A stretch of DNA of 64,000 bases from assembly GCF_015326965.1 (NCBI RefSeq), contig NZ_CP017659.1, forward strand, positions 806,001-870,000. Direction: 5' to 3'. Both the position numbers and the translations under genes were made by a program. Under the pieces are notes generated by a model, which saw nothing but the letters and a program-made list of their open reading frames with translations, was not told the origin of the DNA and ran no database searches. Below are positions 39,984 to 61,021 of the stretch, piece by piece (positions within the stretch are counted from its first letter, which is position 1; each line of letters starts with the position of its first letter). Source of the stretch: Paenibacillus sp. JZ16 (GTDB taxonomy: Bacteria; Bacillota; Bacilli; Paenibacillales; Paenibacillaceae).

Positions 39984-41727
39984 GTTCATTCCCCTCCGTC
40001 AGCCTGATTCGAATTTGGACCCGCAGTCCATTCAATGGACTCCTTGAAAGGACTAATCCGCTGCTTTCCCCGTACGTCAGGGCAATTCGCCGATGAATGT
40101 TGATAAGCCCCGTCACTTCAGGGGATTCGGCAGATTCGGCTGTGCGTTCAAGCCGCTTATTTAGCATGTCGATATCGTTATCCGTCAACCCGTTCCCGTT
40201 CTCTTCAATCACGATGGAAGCTTCTTGGTCATCCAGATGAAACGACACACGCAGCAAGCCTTCATCCTGCATCTTTTCGAGGCTGTGCTCGTAGGCATTT
40301 TCGATAATGGGCTGAATGATCAATCGCGGTACTTTGATCGCCTCCATTTCCTTCGGCAGCTCGCCGAATTCTACGCGAATTCGCCTTGAAAATCTGAGCT
40401 TTTGAATCTCGGTATAAATGCGGGAATGCCTCGTTTCTTCCAGCAAAGGAACGTTGTCCGCATCATTGCGGGTAATGAATCGAAAGTATTCTCCCAGCAT
40501 GTTCGTGAACAACTCGATTTGCGTGACATCCCCCGTTTTGGCCAGGGAGCTCAGGATGAAGAAGCTATTATATAAAAAGTGGGGATTGATCTGGGATTGG
40601 AGCTGTTTCAGCTCTGCCCTTTGCATCATGAGCTTGTGCCTGAAATCCTGGTCAATCAGATGCTGCAGCTTGATGAGCATCTGATTGAATCGATCGTACA
40701 AATAGCCGAACTCGTCCCTTTGTCCGTGCCTGATCCGGATATTAAACATGCCATCCTCCATTTTTCTGAAGCTCTGGACAAGCAGAAGCAGCGGTTTATG
40801 AACCAATTTGTACGTCGAAACCGCATAGATGGCAATCGCCAAGAGGGTCGTGCCTGCAAACAGCCATGCCCAGACATAAAATTTACTTAACGGCCGTTTC
40901 ACCGCCTCAGTGGGCAAGTACGTGAACACGGATAGGTCCAGCTTGTCGGAATACGCCTTGTCGATCAAATACCTGCCTGTGCCGATATTCAGAATTTGAC
41001 GATTCGCATGTTGGATGGCCTGCACGGCCTCTTTCATTAAACGATCCGCCTCCTCATGGCTGGCCAGGGCAAAGCCGGACGGCTCGGAGACGATAAAAGC
41101 CCCGCTTTCCGGATACACGCTGATTTGCATCAGGGATTCCCTGAGTTTGCTCGCATCCAGTTCGATCTGAACGATCAGAAGCGGCTCTTCCCCTTTTCTA
41201 GCTCCGTATTTGGCCGCCACAAGATGGAAAGTATCGTCGATCTGCAGCAGTCTTTGATTGCCGTTCGCCTCTCCTGCAAACAGATGGTTGTACCGTCTCG
41301 AGTCGAATGCATTCATCGCGGTCATGGCTGAAATCGTTTTATCCATGCTGCGGATATGAATGAATACGTCTTTTATGTAGACACTGCTGTTTTTGATGGA
41401 GACCAGCCGCGGCAGCAAATAATGCAGGCTTGCTTTTCTTTCGACCGTGCTCATCATATCCCATGTCAGCACCATTTTGTTCAGTTCCTCATCCTGCAAA
41501 ATATCGTATTGCTGGATTTCCAGCCATTCGATCTCCCGGTTCAACCCGTCCAGGTAAGCCGAAAGCTGCGCCTGCGAATTTTTGGATACTTCCTGGCTAG
41601 CGTATTGGTAACTCCAGTTATACAGATAAACACCGAGAATGATAAGCGGAAAAATGACGAAGAGATAGGTAGCGACCAGTCGAATAAAAATGGTATTACG
41701 AATGGAATTCACGGGTAACTTAAGCAA
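39976..41727 (-). CDS. YesM-type sensor histidine kinase
   Basis: The protein has 583 residues. One membrane helix (FIRLVATYLFVIFPLIILGV, ~14-33), a ~240-residue extracellular sensor, a second helix (~290-310) and a HAMP-like linker lead to the His_kinase domain. The phospho-acceptor His is in QSQINPHFLYNSFFILSS. The ATP-binding region has IIQPIIENAYEHSLEKM and IEENGNGLT. The second G-box is weak, as usual in this family. The start appears to be TTG at 41727, five bases after GGAGGAG. It is encoded 85 bases downstream of a solute-binding lipoprotein that may present the ligand to it (inference). Confidence 0.92.
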   Translation of the reverse strand: MLKLPVNSIRNTIFIRLVATYLFVIFPLIILGVYLYNWSYQYASQEVSKNSQAQLSAYLDGLNREIEWLEIQQYDILQDEELNKMVLTWDMMSTVERKASLHYLLPRLVSIKNSSVYIKDVFIHIRSMDKTISAMTAMNAFDSRRYNHLFAGEANGNQRLLQIDDTFHLVAAKYGARKGEEPLLIVQIELDASKLRESLMQISVYPESGAFIVSEPSGFALASHEEADRLMKEAVQAIQHANRQILNIGTGRYLIDKAYSDKLDLSVFTYLPTEAVKRPLSKFYVWAWLFAGTTLLAIAIYAVSTYKLVHKPLLLLVQSFRKMEDGMFNIRIRHGQRDEFGYLYDRFNQMLIKLQHLIDQDFRHKLMMQRAELKQLQSQINPHFLYNSFFILSSLAKTGDVTQIELFTNMLGEYFRFITRNDADNVPLLEETRHSRIYTEIQKLRFSRRIRVEFGELPKEMEAIKVPRLIIQPIIENAYEHSLEKMQDEGLLRVSFHLDDQEASIVIEENGNGLTDNDIDMLNKRLERTAESAESPEVTGLINIHRRIALTYGESSGLVLSRSPLNGLRVQIRIRLTEGNEHV

Positions 41728-43560: not shown

Positions 43561-43617
43561 TAAACATTTTTTTACTTCCTATCCCGTTATTTACGTGTTG
43601 CTCGTATGCAAACAAAA

Positions 43618-43647
43618 ACCGCCAACCCCTAGATTCGGGGTGGCGGT
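43618..43647 (-). terminator. Terminator of the nine-gene import operon
   Basis: ACCGCC pairs with GGCGGT and ACCCC with GGGGT around a seven-base loop, with one bulged A. On the minus strand the stem is followed by TTTTTG, 15 bases past the last permease stop. Confidence 0.88.
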
Positions 43648-43662
43648 CTTCAACTTGAAATG

Positions 43663-44607
43663 TTAACCTACGATACCCGTACGCTCGATACTTTCCACGA
43701 AATATCGCTGAACGAACAAATAGATGACGATCAAGGGAAGGATCGCCAGCAAAATGCCGGTATCCTGCACCATGCTCAAATAAAATGGGTCCGCCTTCGA
43801 CGGATCGCCGCCCAGCATAATGGACAGGTTGTACGGCAGCGATGACAGCTGGGTGGACATGACTTTGCTTGAAGTCAGATACGTCGTCGTGTAGAAGCTG
43901 TCGTTCCACTGCCAGACGAAGGAGAACAACGTCGTGGTAATGATGGCAGGAATCGCGTTCGGCATCATGATGCGGGTAAAGGTGGTTCCGACGCCCGCGC
44001 CGTCAATATAAGCTGCCTCCTCCACTTCCTTCGGAATGCCTCGGAAGAATTGCCGGAAAATAAAAATGTACAAACCGGCTTTAAGCGAATTGGCGGTCAG
44101 CGAAGTCAGAATGAACGGCCAATAGCTGTTCAACAGATTGACGGACTTGCCGGTGAGGAGCGGAATCAGGCCCATCAGCGTAAAATCCTTCAGATTCAAA
44201 TAAATCGGGATGAGAATCGTGGTGGGGGGCACCAGAATCGTCAGGACGACACAGGCGAACAAAAGCTGGCTGCCTTTGAACTTCAAACGGGCAAAGCCGT
44301 AACCCGCCAGCGCGCAAGAAGCGGCCGTCAAGACCGTCGTCGTCGCCGACAGCGCAAACGTGTTGAACAGCGTTTCCCAGTAATCCATGATGCGGATCGC
44401 ATCAAGGAAATTGCTCATTGTGAAATTTTCCGGAATCCATACGACGACCGGTGAATAAAGATCGGCCTTGTCTTTGATGGCCGTCGAGATTTTTTGCAGA
44501 ATCGGATACAGAATGACAAAGGACAGGCCAGCGATCAATGTTAAACGTATGAAAGACCAGAGCCATCGTTTCCAGCTTTCGAGCGATAGCCACCGAGAAA
44601 CCGACAT
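43663..44607 (-). CDS. Carbohydrate ABC transporter permease, second pair, MalG-like
   Basis: This 314-residue permease has a first membrane helix at ~20-40 (LTLIAGLSFVILYPILQKIS). The EAA loop reads IPKEVEEAAYIDGAGVGTTF, and the C-terminal helix is followed by FVQRYFVESIERTGIVG. The insert between helices 3 and 4 (PLLTGKSVNLLNSYWPF) is longer than in the other permeases here. ATG 44607 has AGAAGGTGA five bases upstream. It is the last gene of the nine-gene operon, closely following its partner. Confidence 0.92.
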   Translation of the reverse strand: MSVSRWLSLESWKRWLWSFIRLTLIAGLSFVILYPILQKISTAIKDKADLYSPVVVWIPENFTMSNFLDAIRIMDYWETLFNTFALSATTTVLTAASCALAGYGFARLKFKGSQLLFACVVLTILVPPTTILIPIYLNLKDFTLMGLIPLLTGKSVNLLNSYWPFILTSLTANSLKAGLYIFIFRQFFRGIPKEVEEAAYIDGAGVGTTFTRIMMPNAIPAIITTTLFSFVWQWNDSFYTTTYLTSSKVMSTQLSSLPYNLSIMLGGDPSKADPFYLSMVQDTGILLAILPLIVIYLFVQRYFVESIERTGIVG

Positions 44608-44622
44608 TGCATTCACCTTCTT

Positions 44623-45540
44623 CTATTCATGGTAAAAGACCTTCCTGGATACAAAGTACGTGCTAATCAACAGGATGATGGAGATGGCCAGGAAGTAAAT
44701 CCAGGCCATTGCTGAGCTAAGGCCGAAATCGAATTGGACGAAGCCCGTGGTCTTGATTAAGTCTGTCAGCTCATTTCGGGAGAACGAGTCGATAATCGTA
44801 TATATCATGTTGACCAGAATCAGCGGGCTGACCATCGGAAACGTGATTTTCCAGAAGGCTTCATAACCCGTAGCTCCTTCCATCTTGGACGCTTCGTACA
44901 GCTGGGGGGATATCGTCTGTATGCCTGCCAGGAAAATAAGGATCTGTACGCCGGATTGGCTTACGATCTCATAAATACGATCCACGGCTCCGGTTAAATA
45001 GTTTACGATCGTCTCGCTTACGCCGGCCTGAAGCATTAATCGCTCAAGTTCAAAACTTCCCAATGCGTTAATCAGCCCCCCGGAACCGGCATTCTGATCA
45101 TTGATCGCCTGAACAAGACTGCTGCTTTCCAGGGTCAGAATGACCCCGGAAGCAAGAATGACGGGCAGGAAGAATATCGATCGGGCAAAGGAACGGCCAA
45201 GGAACTTCTGATTCAGGACGACGGCCAGAAACAGACTGAAGATAACGATCAGGGGCACGTTCACCGCCATGTTCACGATCGCCTCGGTCAGCATTCGGTT
45301 AAAGCTGGTGTTGACCGTAAAGGCAGTCACGTAATTTTTCATCCCCATAAACGTAATGCCGATTCCTTCGGAATTTGCCGTTACGGTGCTAAAACTGTAG
45401 ATCAGGGAAGTCAGCAAAGGGATCAGGAAGAAAAAGATAAAACCGAGCAGCCAAGGCATCACATAAGCAATGCCCCATAATGCCTTCTGTTTCCCATAGC
45501 TTCGCTGCTTTCGCCCCAATCGCTGGGTTATGGATTTCAT
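44623..45540 (-). CDS. Carbohydrate ABC transporter permease, second pair, MalF-like
   Basis: This 305-residue protein has six membrane helices. The first is in ALWGIAYVMPWLLGFIFFFL (~20-40), and the EAA loop reads SPQLYEASKMEGATGYEAFW. Between helices it carries an extracellular stretch with LESSSLVQAINDQNAG. Its ATG overlaps the stop of the DUF5696 gene (ATGA), so it is translationally coupled. It pairs with the permease at 43663-44607. Confidence 0.92.
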   Translation of the reverse strand: MKSITQRLGRKQRSYGKQKALWGIAYVMPWLLGFIFFFLIPLLTSLIYSFSTVTANSEGIGITFMGMKNYVTAFTVNTSFNRMLTEAIVNMAVNVPLIVIFSLFLAVVLNQKFLGRSFARSIFFLPVILASGVILTLESSSLVQAINDQNAGSGGLINALGSFELERLMLQAGVSETIVNYLTGAVDRIYEIVSQSGVQILIFLAGIQTISPQLYEASKMEGATGYEAFWKITFPMVSPLILVNMIYTIIDSFSRNELTDLIKTTGFVQFDFGLSSAMAWIYFLAISIILLISTYFVSRKVFYHE

Positions 45541-48095
45541 GGCGCTTCACCACCCGTTACATAGCTTTCGGCTTCAATGGTTACGCCGTCTATCGTCACC
45601 GGTGCACGATTGTAATTCACGATGACGTAAACGCCGCTCTCGTATGTCGTCTTGAACACGCCGTCAGCCAATTCGTCATGCCCGACGATCCGCTCATGGC
45701 GAACCTTTTTCAGAAATGCATTGATTTCCTCATAGATGCGGGCGGCCTCGTCGATCCATAACGCGTAGTTGGCAGAGAAGAGTTCGTTATGCTCTGTGTC
45801 CTTTATTTTGTGATTAGGTTCATAGAACCATTGAAAATACACGCCAGCACCGTACTCCAGGCACTTCAAAATATAAGGTTTGGCATCGGTATACGCGGAC
45901 AGATTGTAAGGCGCTCCCGTGTAATCGATATGCCCGCGGACAACCATTTGATAGAACGGAATTGCCGCGTCTTCGATTTTAAAGCTGCTGCTAGACATCG
46001 GCGCATGGGTGATATCGGTTAAGAAAGGCAGCGCATAAGCGTTTCCTCCGTCAGCCATGACCTGAAGATTGGTTTCTGAAACCTTGTTCAGCGCATCCAG
46101 AGACAACTGTTCGGACTCCGTACGGTCAATTTGACGATGCTTGCGAAAATCGCTGTCCAGCTCGGCGGCAAGATCACTCAGCGAAACGCCAATAGCGCCG
46201 TATTTTCCATAATCCTTTAAGAAAGCTTCCGTGTAGCTACTCATGAACCGCGGCGATATGACATAGGCAGGCGAACCGGTCCGATCCCGTCGGTTCAGCG
46301 CCGGATTGAAGGAATAGATCTCTGCGGGGATGCCTCGCAGCGTTCTGGACGCCTCCTTCGCCTCGTTGAACCCGGAACCGGACAACGCGGTAAGGATAGC
46401 GACATCCGGATACAGCGTTACCCCATTCTCGTTCGCATAGGATAGCAGACGCCGTAGTCCCTTCTCTCCCCCTACCTGTTGATCAACGGAGACGCTGCCT
46501 GGAACCTCATGATCCAGCCCTTTGTTGAACCAGCCGCTATATTTCAATTTGATGTCATGGATGCCTCGCTTGCCCATCTCTGTCAGAATGCTTTGCGCTT
46601 GTTCGAACGTTGTGAGCGGCTCCAGCGCCCGATACGGAATTCCTGCAAAATGCTTTTTCTTATAAATGCTTCCTACGAGCTGAAGATAGAACGGCATATT
46701 CTCTTCATTCCTCTCGGCAATTGCCGGGAGGCCTCCCTGTTGCTCCAAGTAATTCCTGTAATAGGCGGCGAGTCCCGGATAGGAAGCCGACTGCTTGCCC
46801 ACGAACGCATACCGGACCGAAAAATCGCTTCGCATCGGATCCTCCTGGAACTTCGGGAGCGAGCGCTGCTGGCCGTTCGCATCCAGGCTTAAGTCGCCTT
46901 TGTTGATTACCGTGAACGTCGGGTAGACGTAGTTATAGCTGTTCAGCCTGCCGCTGACGTCGGCATTGATCGTCGCGGCCGGAGCCCCTTCCTCGATGAT
47001 GCCGATAAATGCCCCGCCTTCACGGATGATGCCGAACACCGGCAGCCTGACGTCCTGGCTGCTATCAGCCGTTTCGACCCCGCTCATCGTTCGGTCCATT
47101 CCGTACACGCTCTGCTGGTAGGAAGGGTACCGCGTCTTGCCGTTATTAAAATGGATCAGCGCTCCCGATCCGTCCGGAACGAGGATTGAGCCCTTATCCT
47201 CCGCCCCCCCTGCACCGAAGAAGCTCAGGAACGAGATCGTGTTCACCGGATATTCAGCGGGGAAATCGATGCTGGAAACCGGAAGCTTGGCGATCAGACT
47301 GTCGCCGTCCAGCGTATATTCGATCGAGGCGTGAAATACCCGCGGTTCAGGCTTGGTCTGATCCAAATGGTTCTCCTCGATGTCCACCAGCAAATCGTCC
47401 TCGGTATATCCGGCATCCTCAAAGGCTTTAAGTGCACGCTCCAGCTGCAGACCTTTGAGCGCGCCGTCGGACCGGACATACACCCCTTGCTCGGCATCTT
47501 CCGTGTACGCGATTTTCAGCGTTCGCTGGCCGGCGCTGTCCAGCTTGCTTAACAGGTTCTGTTCAAAGCGGGACTTGCTGATCTTCTTGGGCATGTCGTC
47601 AATCGTTTTTTTGTCCGTGCCGAACCGGTAGTTAACGCGAACGCCGTTTGGGATTTCCTCCATGCCGATTTGCTTGTAAGCCGCGCTGTCGGCGTGCGAA
47701 TTGACCGAATTTATCTGTCCGAAGCTGTTATAAAAGTCAAGCTTCAACTGAGAGGACAACAAGCTTTTGTTCACGCCCGCGGCCAGCGGATCCGACTGAT
47801 GGCCGGGGGGATTGCTGTGCCAAATTTCGCCGCTTGCCTTATGCACGACGGCGATCGCCCCCGTCTGATCGTCCGCTAGCAGCTGGAGCTGATCGTTCTC
47901 GACAATGCCTTTCATGCCTTTGACGTTCGGATTGACGAACGATGACTTGAGAACTGCTCCCGGCGTAAAGCTGTTGGCGGGCCCGTTGCCTTCATCGCCA
48001 GCTGCCTTTTCCGGTCCTTTATCCGTACAACCGGCCATAATCAGCGCTGTCAGCACACTGGCAGCAAGCAGCATGTATTTAGCGAAATTGCCCAT
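45537..48095 (-). CDS. DUF5696 family lipoprotein
   Basis: This 852-residue lipoprotein has the signal ASVLTALIMAGC (~12-23). The mature protein has an N-terminal beta-rich domain (LLADDQTGAIAVVHKASGEI; INFNNG-like blocks) and a central part with GTDKKTIDDMPKKIS. A C-terminal barrel-like region (~480-800) has KLKYSGWFNKGLDHEVPGSV and YPDVAILTALSGSG, resembling glycoside-hydrolase TIM barrels. DUF5696 proteins are of unknown function and typically occur in importer operons of Paenibacillus and relatives. It could be an exo-glycosidase or glycan-binding factor on the cell surface (inference). It is 12 bases after the Yip1-like gene and overlaps the next permease. Confidence 0.8.
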   Translation of the reverse strand: MGNFAKYMLLAASVLTALIMAGCTDKGPEKAAGDEGNGPANSFTPGAVLKSSFVNPNVKGMKGIVENDQLQLLADDQTGAIAVVHKASGEIWHSNPPGHQSDPLAAGVNKSLLSSQLKLDFYNSFGQINSVNSHADSAAYKQIGMEEIPNGVRVNYRFGTDKKTIDDMPKKISKSRFEQNLLSKLDSAGQRTLKIAYTEDAEQGVYVRSDGALKGLQLERALKAFEDAGYTEDDLLVDIEENHLDQTKPEPRVFHASIEYTLDGDSLIAKLPVSSIDFPAEYPVNTISFLSFFGAGGAEDKGSILVPDGSGALIHFNNGKTRYPSYQQSVYGMDRTMSGVETADSSQDVRLPVFGIIREGGAFIGIIEEGAPAATINADVSGRLNSYNYVYPTFTVINKGDLSLDANGQQRSLPKFQEDPMRSDFSVRYAFVGKQSASYPGLAAYYRNYLEQQGGLPAIAERNEENMPFYLQLVGSIYKKKHFAGIPYRALEPLTTFEQAQSILTEMGKRGIHDIKLKYSGWFNKGLDHEVPGSVSVDQQVGGEKGLRRLLSYANENGVTLYPDVAILTALSGSGFNEAKEASRTLRGIPAEIYSFNPALNRRDRTGSPAYVISPRFMSSYTEAFLKDYGKYGAIGVSLSDLAAELDSDFRKHRQIDRTESEQLSLDALNKVSETNLQVMADGGNAYALPFLTDITHAPMSSSSFKIEDAAIPFYQMVVRGHIDYTGAPYNLSAYTDAKPYILKCLEYGAGVYFQWFYEPNHKIKDTEHNELFSANYALWIDEAARIYEEINAFLKKVRHERIVGHDELADGVFKTTYESGVYVIVNYNRAPVTIDGVTIEAESYVTGGEAP

Positions 48096-48107
48096 CCTTC
48101 CTCCTCC

Positions 48108-48734
48108 TTAAGTTCTCATGACCAATTCTTGATAGATGACGGAAATAAAGGCCACGATCTGTTGGACCAAGCTGAAAAACAGCAAACTGATAAAAGCCAT
48201 AAACCCCATGGCGACCAGGGTGAGCAGCATAATTCCGATCGTTTTGGACGGGGAAAACTGATGTACCGTCATATTGCCGACAAACAGCAGGTAAACGAAC
48301 CAGAGAACCGCAACGGAGTTTGAAAAATAATAGAATGCGGTCTCTTGCAGCGACACGAGATTGCTGAGCCAGATCCATGGAAACTGTATGATCACGAGCG
48401 GCAGGAGCGCGAAGCAGGTCGACGTAAAAATTTCGACGAATTTGCCCTCGCCGTCCATCAAGGTCGTAAGCGACCAGTTAGCCACGCACCAGAACAAGAT
48501 CGGCACGATCACATATACGATTTCCATGACGCTGTTCATGCTCTCGGGATTGTACACATGGACTAGAAAACCGCTGTACTGGCTCCCCAAAATGTTCGTA
48601 ACGGCAACCAGAAACAATACGCAAAACGAGATGATCAACGTGAATTTTCGATTGCGATCGTATTTCAGGTCCCAATAGCCCTCAAAGGGATGAACCATGA
48701 GATTTAGGGGAAACCGAATCCATTCCCTGCTCAT
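48108..48734 (-). CDS. Yip1-family polytopic membrane protein
   Basis: The protein has 208 residues with about five membrane helices (for example FTLIISFCVLFLVAVTNILG, VIVPILFWCVANWSLTTLMD and IGIMLLTLVAMGFMAFISLL). The HPFEGYWDLKYDRN motif near the N-terminus is typical of Yip1-like proteins found in these clusters. No enzyme activity can be predicted; it may help assemble the complex in the membrane. The ATG 48734 overlaps the stop of the upstream NHL gene (ATGA) and has AAGGGGGC upstream, indicating tight coupling. Confidence 0.82.
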   Translation of the reverse strand: MSREWIRFPLNLMVHPFEGYWDLKYDRNRKFTLIISFCVLFLVAVTNILGSQYSGFLVHVYNPESMNSVMEIVYVIVPILFWCVANWSLTTLMDGEGKFVEIFTSTCFALLPLVIIQFPWIWLSNLVSLQETAFYYFSNSVAVLWFVYLLFVGNMTVHQFSPSKTIGIMLLTLVAMGFMAFISLLFFSLVQQIVAFISVIYQELVMRT

Positions 48735-50188
48735 GCGGAAGCCCCCTTTCTTCGTTCCTTCACTTTCCGAAGCCTGGATGCGGCAAATATCCCGATTCCG
48801 GCCAAGCACAGCATGGTCATGATCAACGGAAAATGTTCCCTCATGACCGCTTTGCGGTATAGCAGGAATGCTTTCGAATAGTTTTTCTGATCCAAGCTGC
48901 GTTTGAAATGCATCATGGCACCCTTATAATCGCCTTGACGAAGCAAGGCTTTGCCGATCCCCGCATAGGCGAATTCCAGATTGGCATTCATGGCGATCGT
49001 TCGATTAAACAACGCAAAAGCGGTCTCTTCCTCGCCACGATAATAGCTTTTGACGGCTTCATTCAGCGTTCGACCGTATTCGGTCGTTCGGAAGACGGTA
49101 ATTTCGCCAAGCGCTTTATCCAGCACAAGAAAATCCTCGCCGATTCGGTCGATGGCGGCCGGCGTATGAAATTGGCCCATTTGGTTCCCCAGCCCGCCGA
49201 ACACGTACATCAGATGTCCATCCCCATTGTAAGTGAACACCCGTCCCCGCTTGCCATCGAGAACGGAGTAAATCTCGCTGTCGGCAACATCGATGTCGAT
49301 CAGCTTAGAAGGACCTTCGCTGCTGAGGTAAAGAATGTCGCCCTGCGGGTCGGAATACCCCGTTCTTCTTAAAATATCGCTGCCTTGCGCATTAAGCTTC
49401 TTAATGTTATTCCCCCACTGGTCCCCGTTCGTGGCATAGATGAACCCTTCCGAGTCAATATCCAGATTCGTAAACTCCGTAGGCGTAAACATGACCATCT
49501 GGCTGCGCTGCGCCTTGGTCGAGATCTGCTTCCAGAAATATTCGATCGGATCGATATAAACGCGATTCGCGCCGATGAAGGAAGTAAACGCCCCTCCGGC
49601 ATCGAATTCCATGAACCCGTCAAACACGCCGGCAGCCATGACGTAAATTCGCTGCGCATGGTCCATGACGACCCGGACGGGTTCGAATTTAAACGAATCC
49701 TGCAGTAGCTCCGACTCCGGCGAATCGATGATCTTGATCAGTTGAAAATCCGAATCCAAGTGAACCACCCGTTTGTTTCCAGTGTCCGCTACGAGCACCT
49801 CGCCGTCATCGGTCACGAAGATTCCTTGCGGTTGTAGGAATGTATCCGGCTCGCCCTCTCTTGTGAAGGAATCCACGGTGGTTACCAGCTTTAGATCATG
49901 GTCCAGCACAACGATCCGATTGTTGCCGGAATCCAGCACGTATACGCGATTGTCGGCGGTGACGTGAAGATCGCTCGGCTCTTGGAAAGCATCCGTCCCC
50001 AGATCCGAGCCGCTTATCCATTCAGTCGCCACATAAGCGGCCGGCGCTGCCGCAACATCGCCCCAATAGGAATAAATATAGGAGTCCGAGGCGCTCTCGG
50101 CGCTTACGTTCCCCGCTCCTGCCCCAACCCCCAATAAGCAGCAGATCATGATGAGGAGAGGCGTTTTCAGTTTGCGCAAGCTGTTCAT
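48731..50188 (-). CDS. NHL-repeat beta-propeller with TPR and C-terminal membrane anchor
   Basis: The protein has about 485 residues. A signal peptide (TPLLIMICCLLGVGAGAGNVS) is followed by at least four NHL repeats (FQEPSDLHVTADNRVYVLDS, FLQPQGIFVTDDGEVLVADT, and similar) that should form an extracellular propeller. A short TPR-like region (YYRGEEETAFALFNRTIAMN, YAGIGKALLRQGDYKGAMMH) and a C-terminal helix (FPLIMTMLCLAGIGIFAASR) with a basic tail then anchor it. Start ATG 50188 has AAGGAGG 12 bases upstream. It sits between the first permease pair and the Yip1-like gene. It probably acts as an extracellular scaffold or sensor (inference). Confidence 0.85.
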   Translation of the reverse strand: MNSLRKLKTPLLIMICCLLGVGAGAGNVSAESASDSYIYSYWGDVAAAPAAYVATEWISGSDLGTDAFQEPSDLHVTADNRVYVLDSGNNRIVVLDHDLKLVTTVDSFTREGEPDTFLQPQGIFVTDDGEVLVADTGNKRVVHLDSDFQLIKIIDSPESELLQDSFKFEPVRVVMDHAQRIYVMAAGVFDGFMEFDAGGAFTSFIGANRVYIDPIEYFWKQISTKAQRSQMVMFTPTEFTNLDIDSEGFIYATNGDQWGNNIKKLNAQGSDILRRTGYSDPQGDILYLSSEGPSKLIDIDVADSEIYSVLDGKRGRVFTYNGDGHLMYVFGGLGNQMGQFHTPAAIDRIGEDFLVLDKALGEITVFRTTEYGRTLNEAVKSYYRGEEETAFALFNRTIAMNANLEFAYAGIGKALLRQGDYKGAMMHFKRSLDQKNYSKAFLLYRKAVMREHFPLIMTMLCLAGIGIFAASRLRKVKERRKGASA

Positions 50189-50208
50189 CAATCTGACATG
50201 CCTCCTTT

Positions 50209-51084
50209 CTAGTCCTTCATCCCTGAAGTGGCCATCGTCTGCATGACACTGCTCTGGGAGATGATAAAGAGCGTAATGGGAACGATCATCAAGAGGAGTG
50301 CAACGGCCGCGCCGACTCCGGCTCTTGCGATTCCGCCTTCCGTGATCTGTCCGAGCGCGAAATGTAACGTCTTCAGATGCTCGCTGTAAATGAAGCTGCC
50401 CCCATCGCTGCCCCAAAGTGCCGGAAATTGTAAAATCATCAGCGTCAGCCAGGCAGGCTTCACGTTCGGCATCACAATGGACCAGTAAATCCGATATTCG
50501 CTGGCCCCGTCGATTTTGGCTGCCTCAAGCAGGGCATCGGGAATCTGCTCCATGAATTGCTTCATCAGAAACAGCCCGAGCGGAAATGCCAAGGAAGGCA
50601 CGATGATGGAGGCATGCGTATTGATCCAACCCAGCCAAGACATGACCATATAGTTGGGAATCGCCGTAACATGGGGCGAAAACATCAAGGCGAGCACCAC
50701 AATGGAAAACAGCGCCCTCGAGCCGGGAAACCGGTATTTGGCCAGCGGATAGGCTGCTGCAGACGCCAGCAGGATATGTCCGGCCGTGCCAATGATGGTG
50801 ATCAACAGCGTGTTTGCGAAATAACGAGATAAGGGCACCCACGAATTCCCCATCAACACCATCAAATCCAGGAAATTATCCATCGTCGGATTGTTCACAA
50901 AGAACCGCGGAGGGAATATGAACAATTCGTCCAGCGGTTTGAATGCGTTGTTCACCGCGTAAATCAAGGGCAATGCCATGAAGGCTCCGAACAAGGCGAG
51001 CAGCGCAAACAGCAAAATGCTAACGGGCAAAGAGCGGTTCAGCGTTCTCGGCAGCCGGAAATATCGAATCATTTTCGCAGCCAA
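50209..51084 (-). CDS. Carbohydrate ABC transporter permease, first pair, MalG-like
   Basis: This 291-residue permease begins (TTG start) MAAKMIRYFRLPRTLNRSLP. The first helix is in SILLFALLALFGAFMALPLI and the EAA loop reads IPDALLEAAKIDGASEYRIY. A GGTGAG ribosome site lies about five bases before the TTG at 51084; ATG 51072 is an alternative. It follows its MalF-like partner by two bases and precedes the NHL gene by 20 bases. Confidence 0.92.
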   Translation of the reverse strand: MAAKMIRYFRLPRTLNRSLPVSILLFALLALFGAFMALPLIYAVNNAFKPLDELFIFPPRFFVNNPTMDNFLDLMVLMGNSWVPLSRYFANTLLITIIGTAGHILLASAAAYPLAKYRFPGSRALFSIVVLALMFSPHVTAIPNYMVMSWLGWINTHASIIVPSLAFPLGLFLMKQFMEQIPDALLEAAKIDGASEYRIYWSIVMPNVKPAWLTLMILQFPALWGSDGGSFIYSEHLKTLHFALGQITEGGIARAGVGAAVALLLMIVPITLFIISQSSVMQTMATSGMKD

Positions 51085-51086
51085 CG

Positions 51087-52046
51087 TTACTCACCTATCT
51101 TTCTCAACATTTTTTGCGTTAATTTGTTGGTCCCGACCATCAGCAAGAACAGGAACGTCGCAATGGCCGATGCGTAGCCGAGTTCGAAGCGGATCGTGCC
51201 GAAGTCCATCAGATGGGTAACAATGGTGTGCGCCGCATAGTTAACGCTCGGAAACCCGGCGAGCGCGATCGAGATATCCGCGACCGCGAATGCGGTTGTG
51301 ATCTGCATCACGGCCCCGAACATCAGCTGCGGCCTCATGGACGGCAGCGTAATATACCAGAGCTCCTGCCAGCGATTCTTGATGCCGTCCATCGCCCCCG
51401 CTTCGATCAGCGACTTGTCGATCGTTTGCAGGCCGGCGATAAACGCCAAGAAACTGGTGCCCAGGCTCAGCCAAAGCTGCACGATAATCACGATCCATAG
51501 AATATAGTTTTCATTCAGGAGCCATTGAATCGGTTCCAGGATAAAGCCGGCCTTCATCAGAAACCCGTTTAAATACCCATAGCTGTCACCTGAGAAGATG
51601 ATGAGCCAAATGAAGTAAACGTTGCCCGATATCGATGGCGCATAAAAGACCAGCGTCATGAACGCCCGCACTTTGGGCGACAATTCATTAATGATCCATG
51701 CGAATACAAAACAGGCGATATAACTGACGGGACCGGTAATGACGGCGAACATCAGCGTATTTTTCAAGGCGATCATAAAGATATCATCATTCAGAAACAG
51801 CCTCGAATAATTTTGCCAACCGACGAACCTCGGAAATTCCAGCATGTTAAAATAGAAGAAACTTAGGGCAAAGGAAAAGACAACCGGAATGACCGTAAAC
51901 AGAAAGAAAATAATCATATACGGACTCATCAGCAAATAATAGTGCTTGCTGCGCTTCAACTCTTTTATGAAAGAGACCCAACGGCTGTTCTTCTGCACAT
52001 TCGCTTTGGGGCTCTTTACGGTTTGAATTACTGGTTCTCCTTGCAT
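51087..52046 (-). CDS. Carbohydrate ABC transporter permease, first pair, MalF-like
   Basis: This 319-residue permease has a first helix in YYLLMSPYMIIFFLFTVIPV (~36-56) and an EAA loop reading DKSLIEAGAMDGIKNRWQEL. The N-terminal tail is hydrophilic (MQGEPVIQTVKSPKANVQKN). It is encoded 20 bases after the anchored solute-binding fusion gene, with which it presumably works. Confidence 0.92.
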   Translation of the reverse strand: MQGEPVIQTVKSPKANVQKNSRWVSFIKELKRSKHYYLLMSPYMIIFFLFTVIPVVFSFALSFFYFNMLEFPRFVGWQNYSRLFLNDDIFMIALKNTLMFAVITGPVSYIACFVFAWIINELSPKVRAFMTLVFYAPSISGNVYFIWLIIFSGDSYGYLNGFLMKAGFILEPIQWLLNENYILWIVIIVQLWLSLGTSFLAFIAGLQTIDKSLIEAGAMDGIKNRWQELWYITLPSMRPQLMFGAVMQITTAFAVADISIALAGFPSVNYAAHTIVTHLMDFGTIRFELGYASAIATFLFLLMVGTNKLTQKMLRKIGE

Positions 52047-52066
52047 TGACTACCGCACCTCCCCTG

Positions 52067-54958
52067 TTAATATGGCAAATTGAACTCCTTCCGCTTGATC
52101 TCGATTTCATCGTTAATGTACAAAATATAATCGGATAAGGCTTCGCGCGGATTTTCGCTGGCATTTACCACTTTCCTGAAAGCATTGTCCAAATGCCGGC
52201 CCGTGAAATATCCTCCGGGCACCTGCGGAATGCCTCGTACCCACCGCCATTGGTTATCCAAATTCCGATAATCCTTCACCGGCCATGGCAGCTCCTCCAG
52301 CGCTTCGATGTTGGCCGTCGGATAGCGGGCAGCCTCTCCCATCAAACCTTCCATCTCTCGGCCATACGCAATTTGCGTCTCTTTGTCGGTCCACCACTTC
52401 AGAAATTCCCAAGCGGCCGCTTTGCTCTTCGAATTTTGAAGCAGCATGACGGCGGTCGTATGGCTGGCAACTTCGTGGTTCACGATGCCGTCCTCGCGTT
52501 CAGTCCCCGGCACAATCGTGAAATCCCACAGCCCCTTAATCTCGGGGGCCATGACCGTCAGCATGTTGTACGTCGTGTAATCCGCAATCCCGATCGGCAT
52601 TTCCCCGGTCCGGAAACGGTTCGGGAAGTCCGCCTGCAGCGGGAACTTGTAGCTGGTATAAAACTGCGTCCACTTCTTGAATGCCTCCATGGAGATGTCC
52701 GAGTCGAGTGCACTCTTCGTATCGTTATCGCGGTAAAACTGCCCGCCGTTCTGGTACAGCAGCATCGCGAACGTCGCATTCGGGACCAGGCTTGCGTTGG
52801 TGGCTTCCAGCGGCAAATAAAATTGCATGTTGTGCTTCTGAAGCACGGAAATCATGTCATAGATTTCTTGCCAGGTCGCTGGCGGCTTCAAGCCGAGCTC
52901 CTCCAAAATATCCTTGCGATAGAACAACATCGGGAAGGTCTGCTGTTCAGGCAAGGCGTACACCCCGCCGTTATATTTGTAAGGCTCCAGCCCGCTGTCG
53001 CGGAATCGGGTGACCACCTCTTCGAAATCATCGAATTTCGTTAAATCGGCTGCAGCCCCCCTCATCGCGTAGTTGACCGGCACGTCCTCGCCGATTTGCA
53101 TGGCGACATCCGGACCTTCACCGGCAAGCGTGGCTGGCAGAAGGATGTTTCCCGGAACAAGCCGGAGATGCACCGGAATACCCGACTCAGGCGTAAACGT
53201 GTCGTCGATCAATGCTTTCAGTACTTGCGCCTGATCGCGTCCGGTCGTTATCCACACGGTAATGGCATCTTCTTCATCGCCGGCGTTTCCGATGGTGTCA
53301 TAATCTTCCGTATACGAAGCTGCGTAAGCGCCTAACTCATGGCCCGCGACCTCGAAAAACGACGCGTCCGGTTTGGGCAGCTTGCGATCCGGCGAATGAA
53401 CGATCAGATAATCAAGCGAGATGGGCTGCTCTTTAATCTGCAGCATCCAGGTTCCGAGACCGCCCACGTTCACCTTATACGTGTCCAAGCGTTTGGCGAC
53501 GGTTTCGGGATTTTCGGCGAGCTCGTTCAGCTGGTGCACCATTGAATGCAGAACGGCCACCTTGTCGCTTCGCTCGCCTGTCGCTTCTTCCAGATAATCG
53601 GCCACGCTTTGAATGATTTCGGCCTGCTCGGTGAACACCTCCACCATATCCGGAATCCGCTTCTCCAATTGATAATCCCGGAACGGATCCGGCGTATTGG
53701 AGGTGATCATTAGTATTTTGCGGTACATTTCGTTCAGTTCCAGCACGCTGGATTCAATCGTCTGCAAGAGCGGCGCGATCTCCCCGAGAGACACCATCAT
53801 TCGGATCCGATGCGTCCCTTTGGTGAAATGGAATAAATAAGGTTCTTCCTCGCCCAGCACGTTCATTTGCCAATCGCGGTCATAATGAAAGCGGATTCGT
53901 TTCATTTCCTCAAAGGGAAACTCCCCGTCGATCATAAGGCTACGTGTGGCAAATACGCCCCGGAGCTGGTCCTGCTTCTGCTTCAAGACGATTTGGTACA
54001 AACCGTCTTCTTCCACCTCGAACTCCCATTCGATCCATTGCCCCGGCAGCTTCCAGTTAACGCCTCCGATGGTGTTGATTCTGATTTTGGAAACGTCGTA
54101 CGGCTCAACGGTCGGGCTGGATCTGTCGGATGTAGGATACAAGGTCGGCGACGATTTCCGCTTGGCATCCTCCGCCTGAATCAGAATGTACTGATCCCGG
54201 GTCGGTTCCAAGCCCCCGGACTCATATTCATTCGCCAGCTCCTCGTATGTTTTCAAGGCATGATCCTGGTACAGCTCGATATAATCAATGGCCATTGGCT
54301 CCCGCAAGGACGTTAGCATAAGCTTCTGCTTGCCCTTGTCAAAATAAAAGGAATACGGCTCATCATAGTAGCCGTACCGATCCGAGAGCGGCGCAAGCTG
54401 CCAGGAAGGCTGCTCGATCTGCCTTGGCCGCAGATCGTTTCCGCGGTTATCCTGCCTGATTTCCTCGTCCCGGTTTCCCCATACTCTGTCGAATAGCACG
54501 ATATCCGCTCCCTTGAAGGGCACCTTGTCATTGATAGAGAATTGCCTTTCGATCGCCGAGCTCTTCCCTTCAATCGGATAATATCGGATCCGGACATGGT
54601 ATAAGCCCGGTTCTTCCACGTTCACGTCCCATGAGATGGAGCCTGCCTCTGGCGTGATCACGGATTTCCCTTCGGAGCCGTGTAATTTCTCCGCGATCTC
54701 GAATCCCTCCCCGGAGGCTGATACAAAGGACTCGCCTTCGATGCGGACGATGCGGTCCGGGCGGCTGGCCGATGCATGGGCGTCTAAATACTGGCTGTAC
54801 CCGTCCTGCCCTTCCGTTTCAATGACCGCTTCAAAGTCGGAGATCGCTTGAACGAAGCCTTGGTTTGTCGATTTCGAAGGGTAGAAGGCCCATAGAGACA
54901 AAAAAAATAGGACGATGACAAGTATGGCGCTACCGAAACGCTTCTTCCTGGTGTTCAA
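52067..54958 (-). CDS. Membrane-anchored solute-binding fusion protein with N-terminal beta-sandwich domains
   Basis: This protein of about 963 residues is roughly twice the usual SBP length. A basic N-terminus and one uncleaved helix (FGSAILVIVLFFLSLWAFYP, no lipobox) anchor it. The N-terminal half holds two carbohydrate-binding-like beta-sandwiches (IVRIEGESFVSASGEGFEIA at ~70-230; ILIQAEDAKRKSSPTLYPTS at ~250-400), then a helical segment (~400-540). The C-terminal ~400 residues are a complete type-1 solute-binding fold (ITVWITTGRDQAQVLKALID, YALPEQQTFPMLFYRKDILE). A TTG at 54958 follows GGGAGGGAGAG. It probably captures polymer-bound or large oligosaccharides at the surface and hands them to the adjacent permeases (inference). 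Confidence 0.85.
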   Translation of the reverse strand: MNTRKKRFGSAILVIVLFFLSLWAFYPSKSTNQGFVQAISDFEAVIETEGQDGYSQYLDAHASASRPDRIVRIEGESFVSASGEGFEIAEKLHGSEGKSVITPEAGSISWDVNVEEPGLYHVRIRYYPIEGKSSAIERQFSINDKVPFKGADIVLFDRVWGNRDEEIRQDNRGNDLRPRQIEQPSWQLAPLSDRYGYYDEPYSFYFDKGKQKLMLTSLREPMAIDYIELYQDHALKTYEELANEYESGGLEPTRDQYILIQAEDAKRKSSPTLYPTSDRSSPTVEPYDVSKIRINTIGGVNWKLPGQWIEWEFEVEEDGLYQIVLKQKQDQLRGVFATRSLMIDGEFPFEEMKRIRFHYDRDWQMNVLGEEEPYLFHFTKGTHRIRMMVSLGEIAPLLQTIESSVLELNEMYRKILMITSNTPDPFRDYQLEKRIPDMVEVFTEQAEIIQSVADYLEEATGERSDKVAVLHSMVHQLNELAENPETVAKRLDTYKVNVGGLGTWMLQIKEQPISLDYLIVHSPDRKLPKPDASFFEVAGHELGAYAASYTEDYDTIGNAGDEEDAITVWITTGRDQAQVLKALIDDTFTPESGIPVHLRLVPGNILLPATLAGEGPDVAMQIGEDVPVNYAMRGAAADLTKFDDFEEVVTRFRDSGLEPYKYNGGVYALPEQQTFPMLFYRKDILEELGLKPPATWQEIYDMISVLQKHNMQFYLPLEATNASLVPNATFAMLLYQNGGQFYRDNDTKSALDSDISMEAFKKWTQFYTSYKFPLQADFPNRFRTGEMPIGIADYTTYNMLTVMAPEIKGLWDFTIVPGTEREDGIVNHEVASHTTAVMLLQNSKSKAAAWEFLKWWTDKETQIAYGREMEGLMGEAARYPTANIEALEELPWPVKDYRNLDNQWRWVRGIPQVPGGYFTGRHLDNAFRKVVNASENPREALSDYILYINDEIEIKRKEFNLPY

Positions 54959-54996
54959 TTTCTCTCCCTCCCATACGGTTAATCCATCCAATGACA

Positions 54997-55028
54997 GTCC
55001 CTGCCGCAGCAATGCGCTGCGCAGGGAC
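54997..55028 (-). other. Stem-loop between the SBP gene and the fusion gene
   Basis: GTCCCTG (54997-55003) pairs with CAGGGAC (55022-55028), and CGCAGC/GCTGCG continues the stem inwards with one bulged C. On the minus strand no T-run follows it. It is likely an mRNA-stabilising or partial-attenuation hairpin that lets the first gene (the SBP) be expressed more than the rest of the operon. Confidence 0.55.
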
Positions 55029-55055
55029 GATCGGTTCTTCGGCTAATGTTCAAGG

Positions 55056-56453
55056 TTACTTACCATATACTTCGTCGATAGCTGCTTGGAACGTTGACTT
55101 GTATTTCTCAACAACGGTGGAAACGGATATCCCCTCATTCAGCTCGCCGACGAAATCGTAGTACTTCAAATTCGGGAATGTATTGTGGTCAAGAATCATC
55201 ATGTTTGGCGCCACCATTTTGGCGTTATTCAAGTCGTCTTCGCTCGAAAATAACGTTTCGTACGAGGCTTGGTCCGGATAGTCGTATACGGAATCAATGT
55301 CGTTGATTTTCTCCCAGATATAAAGCAGCTGTTCCGGATTTTCGACTGCTTTCGGAATGGTAAGCGCCTGGAAGAGTGCTTCGGCAGAGTGGTACTCTGT
55401 TGCGTTCGGCCCTTTTGGAAAAGGTACGAAACCGATGTCGTAATCCGGCATATCCGTCTGCATGCCGCTCATCTCATGGAGGGCACCTGCGTACATTAAT
55501 GTATTGCCTTGACGGAAAAATTGGCCAGGCTCCGTCCAGTCGCCGCCCTCGGTCGGTCTTGCTATTTTCTCGGTAGCAATACGGGAAATGAAATTAAGTG
55601 CATCCAGTGTTGCAGGATCATCGAGATTTTGCTTATCTTCTTTGGTCAGACCCGTATTGTTGGAATACAATGCATGATCCATAAGCGAGGAGTTTGCTAG
55701 CCCCCAAGTGTCCAGCTTGCCATCGTTGTTCGTATCTTTGTTGGCTTCTTTAGCCACTTGTATGAATGTTTCCCAATTCCAGTTATCTTCGTTCACGTAC
55801 TCTTGAAGCGGCTTTAAGCCAAGCTGGTTCATAAGTGTACGATTGTAAAAGATGCCTTGAACCAGATTTGCTTGATTTTCGGTGAATCCGTACCCCCTGC
55901 CTTCATACGTGTAGTATTCGTTCGTAACCTTTTGGTTAAAGGCAACGGGATTTTTGGTGTATTCGTCAATCGGCCAGAGCAGATCCTGTTTAACCAAGGT
56001 AGGCACCGTATAGGTTTTGCCAAGGCGAACGATATCACCGATCGGCTCGCCAGCGAGCAGGGAAGCGGTAACTTTCTCTTGGTACTCGCCGTAGTCGATG
56101 GCCACGTACTCCACTTTAAAATTATGCTTTTGCATCAGGTCTTCAAGGTTCTTCTTGCGCTGGATATTGTCCGGGGTATCCTCCGGAATCGTCATATCCC
56201 ACCAAGAGACGATTTTAATCGTCTTACCCCCTAAATCGAAATCCATTTCCGGCGTTCTGTAAACTTCCTCTTCCTCCACTCCGCTGTTTTCCGTCCCACC
56301 AGGTTCCTTCAACGTACCTTTGTCGGTGCCGCTATTCGTCTCCGATTCCACGGTTTCTTGGGTGCCGCTGCTCGGGTTGCCCGAGCCACCGCTGCAGGCT
56401 GCAAGCAGCAGAACCAATCCTAATAACAGAACCAATAATTTGCGAACACGCAT
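55056..56453 (-). CDS. Extracellular solute-binding lipoprotein, first gene of the nine-gene operon
   Basis: The 465-residue lipoprotein has the signal MRVRKLLVLLLGLVLLLAAC, a Ser/Gly/Thr/Glu linker (~21-65) and a binding fold beginning GGKTIKIVSWWDMTIPEDTP. It has a calcium-loop-like KDTNNDGKLDTWG and the C-terminus STVVEKYKSTFQAAIDEVYG. Its closest relative in the window is the orphan SBP at 14990-16384. It starts the operon, just downstream of a promoter with a cre-like box, and is separated from the next gene by a stem-loop. Confidence 0.93.
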   Translation of the reverse strand: MRVRKLLVLLLGLVLLLAACSGGSGNPSSGTQETVESETNSGTDKGTLKEPGGTENSGVEEEEVYRTPEMDFDLGGKTIKIVSWWDMTIPEDTPDNIQRKKNLEDLMQKHNFKVEYVAIDYGEYQEKVTASLLAGEPIGDIVRLGKTYTVPTLVKQDLLWPIDEYTKNPVAFNQKVTNEYYTYEGRGYGFTENQANLVQGIFYNRTLMNQLGLKPLQEYVNEDNWNWETFIQVAKEANKDTNNDGKLDTWGLANSSLMDHALYSNNTGLTKEDKQNLDDPATLDALNFISRIATEKIARPTEGGDWTEPGQFFRQGNTLMYAGALHEMSGMQTDMPDYDIGFVPFPKGPNATEYHSAEALFQALTIPKAVENPEQLLYIWEKINDIDSVYDYPDQASYETLFSSEDDLNNAKMVAPNMMILDHNTFPNLKYYDFVGELNEGISVSTVVEKYKSTFQAAIDEVYGK

Positions 56454-56498: not shown

Positions 56499-56527
56499 AG
56501 TTTAGCGCTTACATTTCCATGCAACAA
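56499..56527 (-). promoter_or_regulatory. Promoter of the nine-gene operon with embedded cre-like box
   Basis: On the minus strand, -35 TTGTTG (56522-56527) and -10 TAAACT (56499-56504) are 17 bases apart. The cre-like TGTAAGCGCTAAAC (56500-56513) matches 12 of 14 consensus positions. The 30-base core 56502-56531 is identical in 26 positions to 35412-35441 in the xylan operon promoter. Confidence 0.7.
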
Positions 56528-56619: not shown

Positions 56620-56688
56620 AAGAAGTAAAGAACGGTTAGCAATGCAAAGAAAAGCACATTGTGGAAAAGGGGCTCCGGACAACATAAT
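56620..56688 (+). promoter_or_regulatory. Promoter and upstream conserved box of the second AraC-type gene
   Basis: A 44-base box (56620-56663) matches 35521-35564 in 35 positions. It ends at a -35 TTGTGG (56659-56664), and a -10 CATAAT (56683-56688) follows after 18 bases. The organisation repeats that in front of the AraC-type gene at 35641. Confidence 0.65.
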
Positions 56689-56748
56689 GTAAGCGTAAAC
56701 ATTTTGTTGGATATTCCGCTTATCGCAATATATGGGGAGGGAGTCATC

Positions 56749-57521: not shown

Positions 57522-59174
57522 TCACAGCGTTCCATCCCGGCTTAGCCTGACGGTTCGGTATTCCTGCGGCGTCATGCCGGTCCATTTTTTAAAAAAACGG
57601 GTAAACGATTGCGGCATTTCGTATCCGATCAAACCACCGACCTCGGCTATCTTCAGTTCTTCCCTCTTCAGAAGCTCCTTCGCTTTGCGGATCCTGAGTT
57701 CGTCCATATAATCCGATAGATTCACGCCCCTTTCCTGCTTGAACAGCCTTGATAAGTAAGATGGATTGAAATGAAATTCAGCCGCCAGCCTGACAAGGGA
57801 CAGATCCTCGCTGAGGTTTTGTTCAATGAATGAACAAATTTTTTCAATGACGCCGGCAGCCCTCTTCTGCTCTCCGCTTTTCCGGAGGGAAAACAAAACG
57901 TCAGCAACGCCTTTCAAATAACCGAAGGCTTCCCTCCACGAACGATAGTCTTCCAGTTTCATCAGGCCGAACGAACCGATCTCACGGATTTCCCACCGAT
58001 TGATGTAAGACAGAAGCACAAGCGCAACCGTATAGCAAAGCTCCGTCATATTGGGGTCTCCCCGCTCGAGTTCGTAAGCTGCCGGTTCGGTCAAGTCATC
58101 GAACAGCCCCATGAACTCCTCTTTTCTGCCTGCTTCCAAATGGACGGCCAGCGCCTCGAACTTATCGCGCAAGGATCTGTTAAGGATCATAGCGGACGAC
58201 GCGGATTCCTTGCTTGGAAACACCTTCTGGACCATCCGCGTTCCGTCACCGGTCCGATCATGCTGGTGCCGTCTCATTTTATCGTACATGGCAGGCAGTC
58301 CTTCCCAGGCGAATGCCTCACCGCATAGTGTCACGGCAACCGACGCGTCAAGCGATTCCAGGCAGGATTGCTGAATCAGCTCAAACGTTCCCTCCAGAAA
58401 CATGACTGTAAGTGCGAAAGCGTCCGTCCATTCCGATCCGCTCCACCGCTTGGGCTGGATGAGCCAGATCAGATCCCCGTATCGATCGATGAATCCATTG
58501 CTGCTCGTCCGCTCTGCCAAGAAAGCCTCTGCCAGAAACTTAACCGCAAGCGCCGTCTCCCGACGGTCGACATACGTGGGGGATCTTCCCGCGGAACCGC
58601 CAGACGTTACGCTGCCCAGCCCGATCAGAATCGGCATGGACGCATCCAGCGGAATTTGCAGGCGCCTGAAGTCTTCCTCCAATTCCCGTTCGAAGAGCAC
58701 GTCGTGGAATAACAAATTTCGAAAATAGTCCCCGTGAGCAAGCGTCTCCAGCGTATCCAGCTGCTCTTTCGACCGCCGGATCAGATCATTCGCCCGCAGC
58801 GTCTCTTCCAGTTCCTTGAGCGCTCGCTCGACGGCCGCGATCAATTTCGGGTAGCCTTCGTTTTTGAGCACGTATTGCACGTCCGGCGCTTGAATCGCTT
58901 GATAGACATAATTGAAGTCGTTATGCCCTGTCAGGAACACGATTTTGCACTGCGGCCAATTGAGACGTATCGTTTCCATCAGCTCCAGGCCATCCATGCC
59001 CGGCATGCAGATGTCGGATAGTACGACATCGACCCGCGTCCGGTTCAACAGTTCCAGCGCCTCTTGCCCCGAATAGGCTTTATAGATGTCCAGGTCAAGG
59101 TTCAATTTTCCGAAAATATCCGCCAGCCCATCGGTGATAATTTCTTCGTCGTCAACGATCAACATTCTGTACAC
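57522..59174 (-). CDS. YesN-type response regulator (receiver + AraC HTH)
   Basis: The protein has about 550 residues. The receiver has MLIVDDEEI, the phospho-Asp in DVVLSDICMPGMDG, and Lys in YVLKNEGY. The middle region is ~290 residues. The C-terminal double-HTH reads LVRLAAEFHFNPSYLSRLFK, then IAEVGGLIGYEMPQSFTRFF. I chose GTG 59174 because GGAGGTGA lies eight bases upstream; the start overlaps the kinase gene end. It is a paralogue of the regulator at 38361-39983, and is the last gene of its SBP-permease-kinase-regulator unit. Confidence 0.93.
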   Translation of the reverse strand: MYRMLIVDDEEIITDGLADIFGKLNLDLDIYKAYSGQEALELLNRTRVDVVLSDICMPGMDGLELMETIRLNWPQCKIVFLTGHNDFNYVYQAIQAPDVQYVLKNEGYPKLIAAVERALKELEETLRANDLIRRSKEQLDTLETLAHGDYFRNLLFHDVLFERELEEDFRRLQIPLDASMPILIGLGSVTSGGSAGRSPTYVDRRETALAVKFLAEAFLAERTSSNGFIDRYGDLIWLIQPKRWSGSEWTDAFALTVMFLEGTFELIQQSCLESLDASVAVTLCGEAFAWEGLPAMYDKMRRHQHDRTGDGTRMVQKVFPSKESASSAMILNRSLRDKFEALAVHLEAGRKEEFMGLFDDLTEPAAYELERGDPNMTELCYTVALVLLSYINRWEIREIGSFGLMKLEDYRSWREAFGYLKGVADVLFSLRKSGEQKRAAGVIEKICSFIEQNLSEDLSLVRLAAEFHFNPSYLSRLFKQERGVNLSDYMDELRIRKAKELLKREELKIAEVGGLIGYEMPQSFTRFFKKWTGMTPQEYRTVRLSRDGTL

Positions 59175-60918: not shown

Positions 60919-61021
60919 CAATGGCATTGCCCCCAGCATTTTTTATTCGATTATAGCCTACATTTCGTCAGGACAGCCAGACTTATGTCGGGCAACATCG
61001 ACTTGCGCTGTGTCCTTAGCC

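Follow-up and report, generated by a model that had tools for sequence, protein, structure and literature searches.

A conserved nine-gene operon of Paenibacillus sp. JZ16 with two unlike permease pairs, possibly a surface machine for the uptake of plant-wall oligosaccharides

We analysed a window of 64,000 nucleotides (nt) from Paenibacillus sp. JZ16 (contig NZ_CP017659.1, positions 806,001 to 870,000), whose genome forms a single contig of 7.42 Mb. An earlier prediction, made from the letters of this window alone, had described a nine-gene operon for two permease pairs, two solute-binding proteins (SBPs) and three further surface or membrane proteins, and had proposed that they form one surface complex that captures, possibly trims, and imports glycans. 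Coordinates below are positions in the window; L and G numbers denote loci and genomes of the comparison sets. Our analysis confirmed that the operon is real, with its nine genes on the minus strand from 56453 to 43663 as predicted. In operon order, the features are as follows:

55056..56453, minus strand: SBP1, lipoprotein SBP, 465 amino acids (aa); SBP_bac_1, E 7.8e-22; lipobox-like LLAAC by eye
54959..55055, minus strand: 97-nt gap with hairpin, SBP1 to large SBP; RNA fold z -2.06
52067..54958, minus strand: large SBP, 963 aa; SBP_bac_8 match
51087..52046, minus strand: MalF1 permease, 319 aa, EAA loop intact; BPD_transp_1; EAA Gly in 89/89 rows
50209..51084, minus strand: MalG1 permease, 291 aa, EAA loop intact; BPD_transp_1; EAA Gly in 89/89 rows
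48731..50188, minus strand: NHL beta-propeller protein with TPR-like part, 485 aa; NHL domain match
48108..48734, minus strand: Yip1-domain membrane protein, 208 aa; Yip1 domain match; five hydrophobic segments
45537..48095, minus strand: DUF5696 lipoprotein, 852 aa, fold of glycoside hydrolase (GH) type GH129/GH101; DUF5696, E 7.3e-217; lipobox by eye
44623..45540, minus strand: MalF2 permease, 305 aa, EAA loop intact; BPD_transp_1; EAA Gly in 97/98 rows
43663..44616, minus strand: MalG2 permease, 317 aa, EAA loop intact; BPD_transp_1; EAA Gly in 96/97 rows
about 43614..43651, minus strand: intrinsic-terminator-like hairpin and T run after the last gene; RNA fold -25.8 kcal/mol, z -4.81

Starts were assigned in this analysis for the large SBP (TTG at 54958), the NHL protein (ATG at 50188) and the Yip1 protein (ATG at 48734), each with a ribosome-site-like sequence upstream. 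Successive genes are separated by 97, 20, 2, 20, -4, 12, -4 and 6 nt, which bears out the tight spacing claimed for all but the first gap, and the predicted domains agree with Pfam matches, except that the TPR part of the NHL protein falls below the Pfam cut-off. The strong terminator that had been placed after the operon was likewise recovered: none of 200 shuffled sequences folded as well, and a simple terminator scan did not list this hairpin. The hairpin in the first gap is weaker, with 8 of 200 shuffles folding equally well, and is a candidate stabiliser or attenuator. Between 43000 and 57500 only 7 promoter-like matches were found, below the 15.1 expected by chance, so that nothing argues for internal promoters, yet none is excluded. 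Two candidate cre-like (CcpA) sequences, noted by eye, lie at 56688-56701 and 56500-56513, upstream of SBP1 and of a divergent AraC-type gene.

The operon is made up of two separable modules. Module A consists of the membrane-tethered large SBP with putative carbohydrate-binding-like sandwiches together with MalF1 and MalG1, and module B of the NHL-TPR/Yip1 pair, the DUF5696 lipoprotein, MalF2 and MalG2. Neighbourhoods were read by profile at 102 loci outside the window, 98 of which carry a DUF5696 match above 400 bits; the matches at L070-L073 are weak or partial only, which places these four outside the 98. At 84 of the 98 loci the genes run large SBP, MalF1, MalG1, NHL, Yip1 (separate or fused to NHL), DUF5696, MalF2, MalG2, one of these loci (L079) being cut at both ends. 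Conserved gene order was a point on which the original prediction had staked itself, and the order was kept. The same count rules out an order peculiar to this strain and, because both the order and the parts are conserved, a chance origin of the operon observation is excluded. For DUF5696, named loci of P. lactis and P. campinasensis show 98 and 97% identity to the window copy, respectively. MalF2 follows DUF5696 at 97 of the 98 loci; the remaining locus is cut 310 bases on.

The modules can also be found in other arrangements. Module B precedes A at four loci (L141, L143, L155 and L156) and is visible alone at ten. Two of these ten (L129 and L142) end at a contig end on the NHL side, and eight have 1.7-5.9 kb of DNA free of module A there. 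A large SBP is present elsewhere in the genomes of all ten, and in several it lies at least partly in complete A-B operons or in A-B stretches that continue to the edge of the retrieved sequence (L152, L170, L172, L174, L176, L178 and L179). Module A alone, with free flanking DNA, occurs at L171, L175, L177 and L180; the A-only locus L181 is cut. The cleanest separation is in G297, where a single B (L150) and a single A (L180) lie on different contigs with 2-5 kb of other DNA beside each. These data show that the unit comprises two modules that are able to part and yet keep company.

Several loci depart from the usual form. L086 is a decaying copy with the large SBP, MalG1 and DUF5696 each in two pieces, and at L146:3662-6521 about 1.6 kb separates the two pieces of MalG1, apparently through an insertion. 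In a divergent family (L162-L167, in G066, G151 and G185) the parts lie apart, with free-standing proteins related to the N-terminal half of the large SBP, a separate SBP adjoining a DUF6259 protein, and MalF1/MalG1-like permeases; this is possibly a split or older form of the system. A GH101-domain protein is encoded near an A-B operon at L179:16336-18963.

DUF5696 was searched in 60 relatives, the host genome included, and in 398 genomes of the same phylum, with at most three candidates scored per genome. A match was obtained in 22 relatives, full length in 21 and weak and partial in G046, and in 46 of the 398 genomes, over the cut-off in 39 and full length in 37. A query of residues 1-558 of the large SBP, which leaves out its SBP domain, had matches in 21 of the 60 relatives, the same 21 that carry full-length DUF5696. 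In all 21 the full-length copy numbers of the two proteins, counted after merging the pieces of broken genes, were equal, up to 14. Among the 398 genomes this query matched 47, strongly (at least 130 bits) in 39 and as weaker partial matches (at most 62 bits) in 8. All 37 genomes with full-length DUF5696 had a strong match, and the large SBP occurred without DUF5696 only in G162 and G212, on contigs of 3.8 and 4.3 kb (Fisher p = 4e-50 over the 398 genomes, uncorrected for kinship). The parts of the operon occur together in both sets. The fourteen copies belong to G042 (for example L035 and L078), a genome of 5.5 Mb.

The two permease pairs are unlike each other (MalF1-MalF2 25% identity, MalG1-MalG2 27 to 29%). 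As in CUT1 importers, each pair consists of two BPD_transp_1 permeases with an intact EAA-G loop, and the operon holds two sugar-type SBPs. A degenerate permease pair is ruled out by the intact loops in all four proteins. Rank correlations of pairwise distances among the seven core genes lay between 0.73 and 0.91 at the 85 loci with all seven (L032, L033 and L086 dropped). Among the 14 copies of G042 they ranged from 0.46 to 0.80, highest for MalF1-MalG1, and MalF1-MalF2 reached a rho of 0.56 that none of 5000 permutations equalled.

Genes of the SBP1 type precede the A-B core at 32 of the 98 loci (28 + 4) and follow it at 15 (9 + 6). Tandem arrays of such genes directly follow module B at L127 (four, one of them partial) and L132 (five), as though a single importer could draw on many exchangeable binding proteins. 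Within the window, the minus-strand gene at 14990-16384 encodes an SBP 60% identical to SBP1, near GH43 and GH127 genes and with no adjoining permease genes; it may feed the same importer. The large SBP has an N-terminal membrane helix, predicted beta-sandwich regions at about residues 70-260 and 309-391, helices at 395-510 and a C-terminal SBP domain at about 565-960, of which SBP_bac_8 covers residues 628-885 in the numbering of a 981-aa frame. The original prediction had credited it with carbohydrate-binding-like domains. A scan of the first half of five copies for carbohydrate-binding modules (CBMs) found CBM35 over the cut-off in L157 (E 1.4e-7) and CBM6 below it in L145 (E 2.1e-5); the CBM6 and CBM35 profiles gave no match in the window copy, L053 or L081.

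The NHL protein carries an N-terminal signal-like segment and a C-terminal membrane helix. At 46 of the 98 loci NHL and Yip1 form one open frame, and 45 such frames exceed 600 aa, their Yip1 match lying C-terminally. By hand count, both Pfam domains were present in 117 of 120 relatives of one fusion among the matches listed, a set that was started from a fusion and drawn from length-limited candidates, which favours fusions. The fusions are the best evidence that the two proteins would act together.

A GH129/GH101-type fold extends over most of DUF5696. The GH129 profile PF11308 matched nothing in 299 same-phylum genomes or in 14 control genomes, which makes that search uninformative. The alignment to GH129 was made through a bridge protein at L070:8875-10848, a GH129/DUF6259-type protein that keeps the catalytic residues of NagBb at a locus without the operon. 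In the profile alignment, D435 (nucleophile) and E478 (acid/base) of NagBb fall on S640 and D682 of the window copy. At these two positions the D and E pair occurs in 0 of 99 DUF5696 members and acids at both in 4. When column 641 is taken in place of 640, 22 of 99 have an acid pair, and 29 of 99 have acids anywhere in 637-643 and 679-686; residue 682 is N, S or Q in 28 of the 95 rows of our alignment A1. The catalytic pair is thus not kept across the family, though the window copy may keep one. This weakens the claim that the complex trims its cargo, since DUF5696 is its sole enzyme-like member; the window copy may differ from the family in this respect. Among the 14 copies of G042, DUF5696 is the most divergent of the seven core proteins (27% mean identity vs 48% for MalF1), as expected of a glycan-facing part. 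We found no publication on DUF5696 in the open-access papers searched.

Genes for polysaccharide breakdown accompany several copies of the operon. We collected 44 genes that lie directly 3' of MalG2 and share its strand (gap between -50 and 300, at least 280 aa), leaving out SBP1-type and other core-like genes. Among the first 25 of their 41 families were 9 SBP, 6 GH26, 3 GH10, 3 apiosidase-like, 3 glucoamylase-like, 3 arabinofuranosidase C-terminal, 2 GH30 and 2 GH5. The six GH26 proteins (L074, L078, L085, L088, L123 and L124), picked by identity to L074, have no N-terminal hydrophobic segment, so that signal-less endo-enzymes stand beside some operon copies. The window itself encodes two GH10 enzymes, one with and one without an N-terminal membrane segment, as well as three GH43 enzymes, GH5, GH127 and a GH30-like protein that falls slightly short of its cut-off. 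The neighbouring genes point to an arabinoxylan-type substrate for this copy. Of the other two operon copies in the host genome, one lies beside a GH26 and a GH2 mannosidase-type gene and one beside an apiosidase-like gene, and the substrate probably differs by operon copy. A xylan-specific system was rejected, since the enzymes beside the copies point to several glycans. Pairs of histidine kinase and AraC-type response regulator flank the operon region at 38361-41727 and 57522-60939, each adjoining an SBP or transporter gene.

We favour the interpretation, held with about even confidence, that the nine genes specify a single machine on the cell surface in which two ABC (ATP-binding cassette) importers work together to take up long oligosaccharides from plant walls. 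SBP1-type lipoproteins would probably feed module B, the NHL-TPR-Yip1 chain would probably be the scaffold of the complex, and DUF5696 would probably hold or guide the glycan chain as a retired glycosidase of the GH129 type. Both importers presumably rely on shared ATPases whose genes lie elsewhere; the host genome has two OB_MalK matches outside the operon. The original prediction is supported in part: the gene order is conserved and the parts co-occur, and its trimming claim is weakened.

Several results weigh against one machine. There is no ATPase gene among the nine. Most genomes with a B that lacks an adjacent A hold complete A-B operons too, and an unlinked A partner for the lone B is therefore not proven there. 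Co-occurrence and co-divergence would be expected as well of two separate importers that are merely co-inherited, and even MalF2-MalG2, whose pairing is certain, gives 0.73 at the 85 loci, the lowest value of all, so that these values reflect shared history more than contact. In G042, the within-module permease pairs (0.80 and 0.72) exceed most between-module ones (0.46-0.76). The divergence of DUF5696, an extracellular part, may have other causes. A word search of the JDR-2 transcriptome paper (PMC4765114, main text) gave no mention of NHL, YIP1 or permease.

Some of these points suit an alternative that we consider rather unlikely, namely that two sugar importers of the ordinary kind, which take up different cargo (for instance longer and shorter pieces of one polysaccharide), are transcribed and inherited together and that NHL, Yip1 and DUF5696 serve module B only. 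The separability of A and B, the permease correlations, the four intact EAA loops, by which both pairs could be driven, and the SBP1-type genes beside B, in tandem at L127 and L132, all agree with it. Independent transporters should separate more often, however, whereas 37 of 37 genomes with full-length DUF5696 hold the large SBP and all 21 relatives show equal copy numbers. Another alternative, which we judge unlikely, is that DUF5696 is an active membrane-anchored glycosidase trimming captured chains at the transporter mouth. Beyond the fold and the degradation context given by adjoining enzymes, column 641, beside the aligned nucleophile column, holds D throughout the 95 rows of A1, with an acid at 682 in 67 of them; D641 and D682 of the window copy are both acids, and if the alignment is shifted by one column this copy could be active. 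The active relative DagB is reported to retain the Asp alone of the NagBb pair (PMC5698469), and a failing pair is hence no proof of inactivity. The counts across the family, with the aligned columns nearly devoid of acid pairs and the amides or serine at 682, speak against activity. It is highly improbable that NHL/TPR, Yip1 and DUF5696 form a sensor at the surface that signals cargo to the histidine kinase and response regulator nearby and takes no part in transport: such a pair and an AraC-type regulator do lie directly upstream in the window, but the set is tied to permeases through MalF2, and a single one of the 44 genes collected 3' of MalG2 matches His_kinase, a tally that covers the downstream side.

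The kind of importer is known, and the composition of the unit was not found described in full-text searches of open-access papers aimed at it, which covered the topics Yip1/Paenibacillus, NHL, utilisome and gpPUL. Gram-positive CUT1 importers of the SBP-MalF-MalG type are known to use a shared MsmX-type ATPase. With CUT1/MalFGK2-type importers the operon shares SBPs, BPD_transp_1 permeases with EAA loops, the lack of an ATPase gene and neighbouring glycosidases; it differs in having two unlike permease pairs in one conserved unit, further surface and membrane proteins, and a tethered SBP with extra domains. Unlike GH129 NagBb (5wzn) and GH129-like DagB/ZgGH129 (5opq, 8rzk), DUF5696 is a predicted lipoprotein followed by permease genes, and it does not retain the catalytic pair of NagBb. 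The Sphingomonas alginate system is an ABC importer with cytoplasmic lyases and resembles the proposed machine in long-chain import and in endo-acting enzymes waiting inside the cell, whereas it has one permease pair, belongs to a Gram-negative bacterium and is not known to include DUF5696, NHL or Yip1 parts. If our interpretation is correct, plant-polysaccharide uptake in Bacillota would involve a widespread machine unnamed so far in the literature searched, DUF5696 would receive its first assignment (fold, location and partners), and a cell-membrane system with two coupled ABC importers would open to test.

By analogy, Bacteroidota SusCD utilisomes likewise are a conserved surface gene set multiplied per genome, with copies beside enzymes for other glycans, and the expansion in G042 resembles that of SusCD pairs; our operon differs in that ABC importers form its basis, in a cell with one membrane, and no SusC or SusD was seen among its nine genes. 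We tentatively raise the idea, in which our confidence is well short of even, that it is a Gram-positive counterpart of the utilisome: a fixed surface machine in which two ABC importers would act on the same long chain, with a retired GH129 as guide and a propeller-TPR-Yip1 tie, and whose copies would have multiplied for different polysaccharides. SusCD serves as a genomic marker of polysaccharide loci in Bacteroidota, and the operon could serve as such a marker in Gram-positive bacteria.

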